Below the pieces are notes generated by a model. The model was given only the letters and a program-made list of their open reading frames with translations, made no database searches and was not told the DNA's origin. Source: Halarchaeum acidiphilum MH1-52-1 (GTDB lineage: Archaea > Halobacteriota > Halobacteria > Halobacteriales > Halobacteriaceae). From it: a stretch of DNA of 64,000 nucleotides. Position numbers and translations under genes: made by a program. The number at the start of each line of letters is the position of its first letter. Position 1 is the first letter of the stretch. Below are positions 57,774 through 64,000 of the stretch, piece after piece. The stretch spans positions 1 to 64,000 of the forward strand of contig NZ_BATA01000001.1 in assembly GCF_000474235.1 (NCBI RefSeq), given 5' to 3'.

Positions 57774-57920
57774 CCGCGCGGACATCGACGGCGAAGACGA
57801 ACTCCGGGTAGCCGCCGCTCCACGGCTCGCGACGGGACGCGACGGGGATCGGGAACGCCCCGGCCACACGAGTTATCCCCGTGGCTCGACAACCCGGACC
57901 CAGTACCCTCTCCGCCCCCC

Positions 57921-59195
57921 ATGGCCGAAGTATCCATCACGCACGTCATCCTCTTCATCGCGGCCATCTCGCTGAGCACGATCGTCGGCGGCACCGCCAC
58001 GAACATCGCGGGCGACGTCGGCCACGCCATCGAGCACGTCGGGTCGGACTACGCCGAGCAGGTCTCGCACAGCGTCACCGTCATCAGCGATCCCGGTGCG
58101 ACCCTCTACGACGCGAACACGGACACGCTGACGCTCCTCGCGAAGAACACGGGGGAGAGCAGGCTCCCGACCGATCGGGGATCCCTGCTCGTCCTCGTCG
58201 ACGGCGAGCCGGTGAACGTCACGAACGTCTCCGTCGCCGACGGCTCGTACTGGCGGCCCGGACACGTCGCGCGAATCCGGGCGAATACGAGCCTCGACGG
58301 CGGCGCCCACCGCGTCGTCGTCTCCGTCGACGAGTCGCGGGACTACTTCTCGTTCCCGTACCGAGGCGGGTCGAGCGAGCCGCTGAGGGACGGCGTCGTC
58401 GTGTACACGACGGGGTCGTCGCTGAACACCATCCCGTACGACCGGGGGAACGTGACGACGCAGCTGGACAGCTCGCCCCCGGTCATCGGTCCCGCGTCGG
58501 TCGACTTCGACGGCGACGGCGCGTACGACAGCCCGTACATCGAGAACGGGACGATCCACCTCGTCTACGGCGGCGGCGGGCGCACGAAGACCCTCGGCGG
58601 GAATCCGCCGGCCCCGTCGAACACGAAAACGCGCATCGGGGTGGGGACGTGGAACGGAAGCGACACGTCCGTCTTCTACTCGAACGCCACGAACAAGGAC
58701 ATCTATCGGGTCTCACCGGAGACCGGACCCACCCACGTTCTCAGCGTCGCCTCGAAGGCCGTCGTCGGCGTCGCGGACTTCGACGGCGATTCCGCGGACG
58801 AACTGATCTACCTCGGTACTAGCGCCGACGTCAAGTACGCGGATCCGGACGGAACGACCCACGACACGGGGATCTCCCCCGGATCGAACGTCAGATCGGT
58901 CGGGACGCCCGCGGACTTCGACGGCGATGGTGTCGCCCGCGTCCCGTACGTCACCGGCAGCAACAACGTCAAGCTCGTGGACGACGACGGGGAGATGACG
59001 AAATTCACGTCCCCCAGCGCCGTGAAGACCGGCGTTTCCGTCGACGACGTCGATCGCGACGGCGATCCCGAAATCGTGTACGTCGGGTCGAACAAGAAGT
59101 ACCTCCGGTACCTGAATCTCGACGGGACCACCGGCTACGTGCACGACTCGGCCGGTGACAAGATCCCGGTCGACACGACCGCCGGCACGGCCTGA
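57921..59195 (+). CDS. FlaG-like archaellum protein extended by FG-GAP-like repeats
   Basis: The 424-residue protein begins MAEVSITHVILFIAAISLST, one N-terminal membrane helix. The next part, VISDPGATLYDANTDTLTLL with LLAKNTGESRLPTDRGSLLV, is the FlaG/ArlG beta-sandwich pattern (about residues 50-140). FlaG is normally about 150 residues and anchors the archaellum to the S-layer. Here about 270 residues follow with four aspartate-rich motifs at about 194, 286, 332 and 375 (DFDGDGAYDS, DFDGDSADEL, DFDGDGVARV, DDVDRDGDPE), typical of FG-GAP/VCBS-like Ca-binding repeats of a beta-propeller. The archaellin follows; FlaCE is 4 kb downstream. A surface adhesion or anchor role is inferred. Confidence 0.8.
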   Translation: MAEVSITHVILFIAAISLSTIVGGTATNIAGDVGHAIEHVGSDYAEQVSHSVTVISDPGATLYDANTDTLTLLAKNTGESRLPTDRGSLLVLVDGEPVNVTNVSVADGSYWRPGHVARIRANTSLDGGAHRVVVSVDESRDYFSFPYRGGSSEPLRDGVVVYTTGSSLNTIPYDRGNVTTQLDSSPPVIGPASVDFDGDGAYDSPYIENGTIHLVYGGGGRTKTLGGNPPAPSNTKTRIGVGTWNGSDTSVFYSNATNKDIYRVSPETGPTHVLSVASKAVVGVADFDGDSADELIYLGTSADVKYADPDGTTHDTGISPGSNVRSVGTPADFDGDGVARVPYVTGSNNVKLVDDDGEMTKFTSPSAVKTGVSVDDVDRDGDPEIVYVGSNKKYLRYLNLDGTTGYVHDSAGDKIPVDTTAGTA

Positions 59196-59462: not shown

Positions 59463-60083
59463 ATGGAACTCAGCCTCCCAGACTTCGACTACGAACGCGG
59501 TCAGGTCGGTATCGAGACCTTGGTCGTGTTCATCGCGATGGTTCTCGTCGCAGCCATCGCGGCGACGGTACTGATCAACACGACCGGATTCCTGCAGAAC
59601 AAGGCGTCCGCAACGAGTCACGACTCCGCCAATCAGGTGTCGAATCAGGTGAACGTGATCTCGGCTACCGGTGAAGTGAGTGGGACCAACACCATTAACG
59701 AGGTCAATCTGACGGTGATGCAGTCACCGGGTGCCGACGCGATCGACCTCAGCGGGGCGTCGGTGAAGTGGACCGGGCCAGACGGTGCGAAGACCCTGAC
59801 GTACGCGGGTGATAACGAATCCGCATCGGCGACAAATGCAGAGTTCGGTGTGTCTAAGATTAAGGACAACGACAGCTCCATCCCGGTTCTGAACTCGAGG
59901 ACGGACCGGATGAAGATCAACATCGCGCTGGATCAGAGTGGCACGACCGCGCTCAAGCCGCTCGCTCCGGGTGAGGAGTCGACGATCCAGATCGTGACGC
60001 AGTCCGGAAGCCAGTACACGTACGTGGCGTCCGTTCCGCAGACGCTCAGCTCGCAGGACGAGGGCGGCGCCGTCTCCCTGTAA
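59463..60083 (+). CDS. Archaellin (archaellum filament protein)
   Basis: The 206-residue protein carries a prepilin-type signal: a charged leader ending YERGQ followed by [20 protein letters not shown], with cleavage expected after the glycine at the RGQ site. The rest is beta-rich and Asn/Ser/Thr-rich with several N-glycosylation sequons (for example NLT and NES), as in haloarchaeal archaellins. It is exported by the ArlIJ machinery outside the window. The promoter is probably within 59400-59462. The gap 59196-59462 is otherwise empty. Confidence 0.95.
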
Positions 60084-60144: not shown

Positions 60145-60636
60145 CTACGACTCGACGTCGAGATCCGACTGCTCCAGCAGGAGCGAGACGACTTCCTCGG
60201 GCGGGAGCGAGTCGTCGACCTGCCCGGCGTACCACCGGAGCGCCTCCTCGAACACCTCGACGATGTTGTTCGAGGTGGCGACGGTCGTCTCGGTCCCGCT
60301 GTCGGTCTTCGCCGACAGGGCGATCCCGTACGCTTCGTCGACGCGTTCGAGCGCGCCCCCGTGGTCGCGTCCATCGCCGGGTTCGTCCCGCGCGTCGCGT
60401 GCGTCGCCGTTCGGGAGATCGGTCCCGGGGGGCGTTTCCGTCGCCTCGCCGTTCGTCGAGACGACGTAGCGGCCCTCGCCGCGCTCGCGTACCCCGTCGC
60501 GCCTCGCGATGTCGAGGTCCGCGGGGTCGATCGCGTCCGCGTCCCCGGAGTCGCTCTCGCTGCGCAGTTCGGCGACGCGCTCGGCGTGCTCCGCGGCCAG
60601 CTGGCGGTCGTCGTCCGGCTCGCTCTCGTCGGCCAT
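60145..60636 (-). CDS. Acidic protein next to the archaellin gene
   Basis: The 163-residue protein starts MADESEPDDDRQLAAEHAER. It has IDPADLDIARRDGVRERGEG, then GRYVVSTNGE, and a helical C-terminal part (NNIVEVFEEALRWYAGQVDD). The last ends with PPEEVVSLLLEQSDLDVES. It may belong to a haloarchaeal DUF (DUF7500-like, low certainty) seen near archaellum genes. No membrane helix. Antisense to the small membrane gene's upstream area. Confidence 0.6.
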   Translation of the reverse strand: MADESEPDDDRQLAAEHAERVAELRSESDSGDADAIDPADLDIARRDGVRERGEGRYVVSTNGEATETPPGTDLPNGDARDARDEPGDGRDHGGALERVDEAYGIALSAKTDSGTETTVATSNNIVEVFEEALRWYAGQVDDSLPPEEVVSLLLEQSDLDVES

Positions 60637-60732
60637 GTCGGCCCGTTGGGCCACGAGCCACAAAACGTTCCCGCGCCGCGGCGCTCGCGCTGGCCACAAG
60701 CGTTGTCCCCCGCGGTGCCCAATCCGCGGCCG

Positions 60733-60912
60733 ATGGTCTCCTTCGCAGCGCTCGTGGCGGGCGCCGGCATCGTCATCGCGTCCACCGCGTTCTTCCGATT
60801 GGCCGACAGCGACGAGACGGAGTTGACCCACCTCGTCCTCGTCGAGTACGGCTTCGCCGGTCTCCTGTTGCTCGTCGGTCTCGGCGTCGTCGCCTACGGC
60901 CTGCTCGGTTGA
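60733..60912 (+). CDS. Small membrane protein (59 aa)
   Basis: Starting MVSFAALVAGAGIVIASTAF, it has two hydrophobic spans (about 2-20 and 38-58) with an acidic loop (DSDETELTHLVLVEYGFAGL). I do not recognise it. The position between the acidic protein and the Tat lipoprotein gene, with ordinary codon bias, supports a genuine gene. Confidence 0.6.
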   Translation: MVSFAALVAGAGIVIASTAFFRLADSDETELTHLVLVEYGFAGLLLLVGLGVVAYGLLG

Positions 60913-63272: not shown

Positions 63273-64000
63273 ATGAACGCCCGTGATGTCGTCGACGAGC
63301 TCGGTCTGAGCGCGTTCGTGGGCGAATCAGATGCCGACGAGTCGGACACGTCCACCCGGACCGAGAGGGGTGACGCGGCCGCGGAGACGGACGCCGAGAC
63401 GTCGAACGACGCCGCGGTGCGGGGGGACACGGCCGTCGAGCAGTCGGGCGAGACCGTCGAGGAGACGGGGGGAGCGACGAGCGTCGACGACGACGACCTC
63501 GACGACATTCGCTATCGGATCGACGAGCTCGAGTCGGACGTCGAGGACAACGAGTCGGCCATCGACGAGGTCCGACAGAGTCGCGAGGGCCTCGAAGAGC
63601 GCCTCGATCACCTCGAGGACAACCACGCGACGATGCTCGGCGTCTACGATCAGCTCGTCGAGGACGTCAACCCCTTCTCGGGCGACAGCGAGTTCGATCG
63701 GTCCGAGCGGGACGGGCCGTACGGCGTCACGGACCCGTCGAGCGGCGGGAACGAGGACGACGTCGTCAGCTTCGACGACGTGAAGCGGTCCGCGGAGTCG
63801 GCCGACGGCGGCGGCTCGGACGCGGGCGCGGAAGGCGACGAGCAGGCAGTCGAGACCGACGGGGCGCGAACGACCGAGCACGCCTCGACGGCACCGGATC
63901 AGGCGACGGAATCGGCCACGTCGACGCCGGTCGCGGACGGCGACGCATATCTCAGCGGGCTCTCGTCGACGTACGCGACGGACATCCTCCTCCTCCGGTG
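63273..64000 (+). CDS. FlaCE (ArlCE) archaellum accessory protein, 3' end outside the window
   Basis: About 242 residues are visible. The N-terminus MNARDVVDELGLSAFVGESD precedes a long acidic disordered part. A coiled-coil lies near residues 75-115 (IRYRIDELESDVEDNESAID, then LEERLDHLEDN), followed by VYDQLVEDVNPFSG. The last visible part, YLSGLSSTYATDILLL, is the start of the FlaC/E domain. In haloarchaea FlaCE links the archaellum motor to chemotaxis. FlaF, FlaG, FlaH, FlaI and FlaJ would normally follow to the right. The ORF is cut by the end of the window. Confidence 0.85.
   Translation, partial: MNARDVVDELGLSAFVGESDADESDTSTRTERGDAAAETDAETSNDAAVRGDTAVEQSGETVEETGGATSVDDDDLDDIRYRIDELESDVEDNESAIDEVRQSREGLEERLDHLEDNHATMLGVYDQLVEDVNPFSGDSEFDRSERDGPYGVTDPSSGGNEDDVVSFDDVKRSAESADGGGSDAGAEGDEQAVETDGARTTEHASTAPDQATESATSTPVADGDAYLSGLSSTYATDILLLR

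Follow-up and report, generated by a model that had tools for sequence, protein, structure and literature searches.

An additional ArlG joined to a predicted FG-GAP-type beta-propeller beside the archaellin gene of Halarchaeum acidiphilum

Locus and gene architecture

The window, the whole 64,000-nucleotide stretch of Halarchaeum acidiphilum DNA that we analyzed, sits on contig C165 of its own genome (G000) and contains an intact ORF with an ATG start, in whose product a full ArlG domain is connected by a short linker to a propeller module of ~265 residues (Table 1). The gene is separated by 147 bases from an ABC-transporter gene upstream and by 267 bases from an archaellin gene downstream. 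Its product is 63, 45, 37, and 37% identical to full-length versions in four other assemblies, and because of these full-length relatives we ruled out an assembly artefact or frameshift as the source of the fusion.

Table 1 Features of the fusion gene and its surroundings (window positions; residues are those of the fusion protein).
Feature	Position	Strand	Basis
ArlG-propeller fusion gene, 424 aa	57921..59195	+	Profile matches; full-length relatives in four other genomes
ArlG domain, residues 1-148 (N-terminal helix 5-49, beta-sandwich ~52-147)	57921..58364	+	NF052591, model, conserved columns
Short linker, residues 149-157	58365..58391	+	Low model confidence
FG-GAP-type beta-propeller (predicted), residues 158-424, six blades by strand count	58392..59192	+	FG-GAP_3, model, PDB matches
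Asp loop DFDGDGA, residue 195	58503..58523	+	Motif scan
Asp loop DFDGDSA, residue 286	58776..58796	+	Motif scan
Asp loop DFDGDGV, residue 332	58914..58934	+	Motif scan
Asp loop DVDRDGD, residue 376	59046..59066	+	Motif scan
Upstream block GGCCACACGAGTTATCCCCGTGG, 23 bases	57862..57884	+	Identical in H. rubridurum, spacer around it diverged
Archaellin, downstream neighbor of the fusion in Halarchaeum and G010	59463..60083	+	Arch_flagellin, 128.4 bits
arlCE, first gene of the canonical arl cluster, truncated by the window end	63273..64000	+	FlaC_arch, 44.7 bits
arlF (outside the window)	64239-64682		Between arlCE and canonical arlG

The place after arlF is held by a canonical arlG of 151 aa (G000:C165:64683-65138, 683 bases beyond the window end, after arlCE-arlF), so the fusion is classed as a paralogue and not as the stator ArlG. 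arlH, arlI, and arlJ come after the canonical gene, likewise outside the window, with ArlJ at C165:67597-69351. A replacement of the canonical ArlG by the fusion was ruled out, as both genes are present in the same genome. The initial annotation had proposed an ArlG-propeller fusion that might be an extra paralogue outside the flaCE-flaF-flaG order, next to the archaellin, and had suggested looking for a second, short flaG after flaCE; the canonical arlG is that short gene, and the paralogue claim held. The fusion claim held as well, on the curated ArlG profile, an FG-GAP_3 match, the structural model and the relatives.

The fusion-archaellin pair is kept in a genome of a neighboring genus (G010), where the upstream genes differ, whereas the Halobacterium fusions lie outside the arl cluster. 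The conserved 23-base block upstream of the gene suggests, without proving it, that the fusion may have its own promoter. In Halarchaeum, the archaellin and arlCE are separated by a DUF7500 gene (60145-60831, minus strand), and G010 contains a gene resembling it (L038:8776-9228). Another genome of the same genus (G001, locus L047) has a divergent arl cluster with an ArlJ of 50% identity, two archaellins and no fusion, and this cluster looks as if it might have been exchanged.

The N-terminal ArlG domain

The NCBIfam equivalog profile for ArlG (NF052591) matches residues 1-145 along model positions 1-148 at 129 bits, above its cut-off of 110, while the ArlF profile reaches only 36 bits on the N-terminal part and Pfam Arch_flagellin scores 67.5 bits on the fusion. 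The conserved ArlG columns are kept at 17 of 18 positions. In the model, a single N-terminal helix (residues 5-49) is followed by one beta-sandwich (strands 52-147), and the domain modeled alone reached a pLDDT of 83.8. A fold search with this domain returned generic Ig-like sandwiches, with the solved ArlG outside the best 50 listed matches; the identity of the domain therefore rests on sequence. The assignment of the N-terminal third to FlaG/ArlG in the initial annotation is upheld by the curated profile, with only non-specific matches by fold. Searching PDB sequences with the ArlG profile found archaellins only, which we did not use as proof.

At 424 aa, the protein departs from the ArlG norm of ~150 aa ending after the sandwich. 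Neither the Class_IIIsignal nor the arch_flag_Nterm profile matched the fusion, while the archaellin does match arch_flag_Nterm; without a class III signal peptide match, the fusion protein need not enter a pilus-like polymer.

The C-terminal propeller module

FG-GAP_3 matches the fusion at 27.6 bits against a cut-off of 26.9, over three stretches of which the best spans residues 286-338, and in some relatives the FG-GAP profile falls below the gathering score. The starts of the four Asp loops are separated by 91, 46, and 44 residues, in agreement with the initial annotation, which had described four Asp-rich motifs ~45-90 residues apart; the blade count is corrected here to six. Counting overlapping DxDxD matches, we observed five where 0.37 were expected, a number found in 1 of 5000 shuffles. 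The 91-residue gap conceals a degenerate second blade around W244, where relatives have the expected fifth loop as DWDGDG.

The AlphaFold2 model of the fusion, built from 23 sequences, has a mean pLDDT of 77.1 and a pTM of 0.58, with most of the sandwich at 84-96 and part of residues 150-186 below 50. On our reading of its strand list, strands in 158-182 and one C-terminal strand make a sixth blade around the five repeats, and the predicted propeller is thus best counted as six blades, four of them with an Asp motif. All five fusions have a C-terminal G-x-A, as do many relatives in which the module is the last part of the protein, and this is consistent with a closing strand. Most of the top PDB fold matches of the fusion were propellers, including LRP6, LDL-receptor, and TolB domains, with low TM-scores for a two-domain query; the propeller domains of these three proteins are six-bladed. 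Given the pTM, we consider the predicted closed propeller fold supported with moderate confidence, and the propeller claim of the initial annotation held as a prediction. Its suggestions of binding to Ca2+, the S-layer or a surface are plausible in the absence of binding data. A sequence search of the propeller against the PDB gave only weak summed scores to designed repeat propellers and was not used as proof.

The propeller module is mobile, as it also follows type IV pilin or DUF7261-type N-termini and is present on secreted PKD proteins. A 597-aa protein (L050:4971-6764, minus strand, C121 of the window's genome) combines a DUF7261-type pilin-like N-terminus with the same module, and a 1343-aa secreted-type protein (L051:4806-8837, plus strand, C160 of the window's genome) begins with the module, followed by repeated domains and a hydrophobic anchor at the end. 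Archaeal type IV pilin-like proteins of ~417-435 aa at L171, L174, L177, L178, and L187 have the propeller as C-terminal module and are candidate archaeal modular pilins.

Divergence between Halarchaeum species

We compared the locus of H. acidiphilum with that of H. rubridurum (G003). The ArlG half of the fusion is 89% identical (pN 0.068, pS 0.23), while the propeller, at 49% (pN 0.335, pS 0.38), is the most divergent piece of the locus. For reference, canonical ArlG is 81% identical (pN 0.095), ArlF 78%, and all other compared neighbor genes 70-100%. Fast propeller divergence would be expected for an exposed recognition surface, one possibility among others, as relaxed constraint or recombination may also explain it; pS is raised too, so recombination may contribute. 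The contrast between the two halves is absent between the two Halobacterium fusions (57 and 53%), as it is in other pairs.

Distribution of extra ArlGs

The initial annotation had proposed a survey of haloarchaea for the same fusion; we found it in five genomes, and other modules on extra ArlGs in Natrialbaceae. Within the fusion's own family, 22 of 26 genomes have an ArlG, 11 of these 22 have a second one, and 5 of the 11 second copies are full-length propeller fusions, in Halarchaeum, the neighboring genus and two Halobacterium. In six Halobacterium genomes the second ArlG is unfused, at ~150 aa. ArlJ was present in all five fusion genomes; it is missing, as is the fusion, from the four family genomes that lack ArlG.

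A second ArlG was found in none of the 108 genomes with ArlG among 129 of family f5, where the gene is always single. Two ArlGs occur in family f4 only in genus g33, as a tandem pair; in g33 genomes G065, G072, G086, G156, G245, and G299, two adjacent genes are both over the ArlG cut-off, and the arlF position may there hold an ArlG-like gene. Family f8, which we take to be Natrialbaceae from named relatives such as Natrinema, has ArlG matches in 85 of 125 genomes. By our tabulated count, 29 of these combine canonical ArlG with a clearly non-canonical one and three have a non-canonical copy only; apart from both groups, G400 contains two short copies whose status is ambiguous. One of the three is G110, a genome without canonical ArlG in which the extra copy is a fragment cut by a TAG stop (G110:C1:249120-249431), apparently decaying after archaellum loss.

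These distributions bear on one alternative, that the fusion has dropped out of archaellum work and become a surface protein or a minor subunit resembling a pilin, with the ArlG domain as a mere membrane anchor and stalk. In its favor, G322 and G401, both Natrialbaceae, keep an extra ArlG without a canonical one, and G322 also lacks ArlJ; the copies of Halobacterium and Natrialbaceae are found away from archaellum loci; and the propeller also occurs on type IV pilin-like proteins. Against it, the Halarchaeum and G010 fusions lie beside the archaellin, and in Natrialbaceae an extra ArlG accompanies a canonical one in 29 of 82 genomes, compared with 3 of 43 genomes without (P = 0.0004, Fisher's test, relatedness ignored). 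We consider this alternative unlikely.

Domain trees and exchanged C-terminal modules

The fusion groups to be tested were named from architecture before tree building. A single clade was rejected both for the ArlG domains of the five fusions (p-AU 0.005) and for their propellers (p-AU 0.006), which excludes one inherited fusion for all five and points to repeated joining: ArlG and propeller were joined twice, or once and then reshuffled. Independent joining is the simplest account; loss and domain exchange after a single joining remain possible. For the extra Halobacteriaceae ArlG domains as a whole, fused and short alike, a common origin was not rejected (p-AU 0.36).

The main Natrialbaceae extra ArlGs form one clade apart from canonical ArlG, with a conserved non-archaellum locus in the three loci read, and the beta-helix copies of g67 form another. 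Extra ArlG genes of Natrialbaceae whose C-terminal modules have been exchanged were noted at L086, L088, L103, L119-L148, and L191-L201. LamG C-termini are found in L103, L121, and twice in L122, and L129 (616 aa) ends in a PQQ-type propeller. L139, a close relative of L129, lacks this propeller, and tblastn detected no such sequence downstream of it. Many copies of 244-268 aa have Ig-like C-termini with weak profile matches; L191 combines beta-helix, Big_1-like and carboxypeptidase-regulatory-like regions, with a beta-helix also in L192; and others have no C-terminal addition. Our search of the open-licence literature found no paper describing ArlG fused to other domains.

A further alternative is that the fusion is a redundant duplicate, without a selected role for the C-terminal addition. 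The fast divergence of the propeller and the six Halobacterium genomes that manage with a short second ArlG are compatible with this. However, five widely diverged genomes all keep an intact ORF, the ArlG half shows good conservation, with pN far below pS, and several kinds of exodomain have been added to separate extra ArlG lineages, all of which makes this explanation very unlikely.

Proposed role

We lean toward reading the gene as a modular ArlG-type subunit, a stator fold carrying a binding module, with the caveat that no ligand, localization or expression data exist. It has been proposed that ArlF and ArlG connect the membrane to the S-layer, through a thread that ArlG is able to form and that ArlF caps at the S-layer (PMC8667602, PMC12024892), and the Streptococcus sanguinis modular pilins PilB and PilC have been shown to mediate adhesion or to bind glycans (PMC8179133, PMC9934059). 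We favor display or binding through an ArlG-type anchor because the short linker would place the propeller near the S-layer and because of this modular-pilin precedent. On this reading, the N-terminal helix would lie in the membrane and the beta-sandwich in the pseudoperiplasm, joining or capping the ArlG/ArlF thread. The propeller, presumably stiffened by Ca2+ in its Asp loops, would be held at or beyond the S-layer on its short linker and may bind a partner, whether a surface, a polymer or another cell. By analogy with bacterial modular pilins, where the pilin is the carrier, a binding module would here be mounted on the fold of a stator subunit.

A position upstream of the archaellin kept in Halarchaeum and G010, despite differing genes on the other side of the fusion, supports a link to the archaellum. 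The support for this link is good in these two and weaker elsewhere, as the extra ArlG of G322 and G401 stands without a canonical copy. Counting against the modular-ArlG reading as a whole are these two genomes, the Halobacterium fusions off the arl cluster, the moderate quality of the propeller model and the lack of a class III match, and the evidence does not decide between service in the archaellum stator and a separate surface role.

A third alternative keeps the protein in the motor, as a strengthened stator subunit whose propeller is an additional S-layer clamp with an ArlF-like cap function and no outside ligand. It is consistent with the proposed bridging by ArlF/ArlG (PMC12024892, PMC8667602), with the Halarchaeum-type fusion adjoining the archaellin and arl cluster and with its absence from family genomes without ArlG. 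It is at odds with the Halobacterium fusions away from the arl cluster, with the lectin-like LamG and other modules on other extra ArlGs, which look more like varied binding than one clamp, and with a propeller whose divergence far outpaces that of ArlF in the comparison of the two Halarchaeum species. We therefore judge the clamp, too, to be unlikely, and retain the modular subunit with a binding module as our preferred reading.

A bolder reading, for which the balance of evidence currently falls slightly short, is that haloarchaea repeatedly make a duplicated stator subunit into a surface-display scaffold with interchangeable modules: two FG-GAP propeller lineages, LamG, a PQQ propeller, Ig-like domains, and beta-helices. 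If this were true, the motor's anchoring thread would double as an adhesion or sensing device.

Comparison with known systems

FlaG was described as single copy in a 2016 census (PMC4858521), and ArlG as a single-copy archaellum stator subunit (PMC4858521, PMC12024892), whereas additional copies are common in two families of haloarchaea, with different exodomains attached repeatedly. The fusion resembles ArlG/FlaG (NF052591; filament, PMC8667602) in its N-terminal helix and beta-sandwich, full-length profile match and conserved columns, and differs in being a second copy off the arlF-arlG position, far longer than ~150 aa, with a propeller attached. These proteins are natural variants for testing ArlG location, ArlF co-polymerization and the reach of the stator outside the cell.

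Its C-terminal module shares the repeat profile and Asp-loop pattern of FG-GAP beta-propellers (PF13517, PF01839), but is a haloarchaeal, predicted six-blade module with one degenerate loop and relatives mostly below family cut-offs. PilY1-type tip adhesins (PMC8833165, PMC11891296) likewise present a propeller with Asp-rich loops, Ca2+-dependent in their case, in a type IV filament context; PilY1 is, however, a separate large protein, whereas the propeller here is part of the subunit itself, and we claim likeness, not homology.

The nearest parallel in layout is with bacterial modular type IV pilins, in which a binding-type module lies C-terminal to a small pilin-fold subunit on a short linker, an arrangement met here by residues ~149-157 between sandwich and propeller. 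Varied modules are also seen in S. sanguinis PilB (vWA) and PilC (Ig-like plus lectin module), including a ConA-like lectin (PMC8179133, PMC9934059). Unlike in those pilins, the module is here carried by a paralogue of an archaellum stator protein that has no class III signal match and for which adhesion is only inferred; the fusion may work like a modular type IV pilin without being classed as one. The modular-pilin idea would then extend from bacteria to archaea and to a part of a motor.
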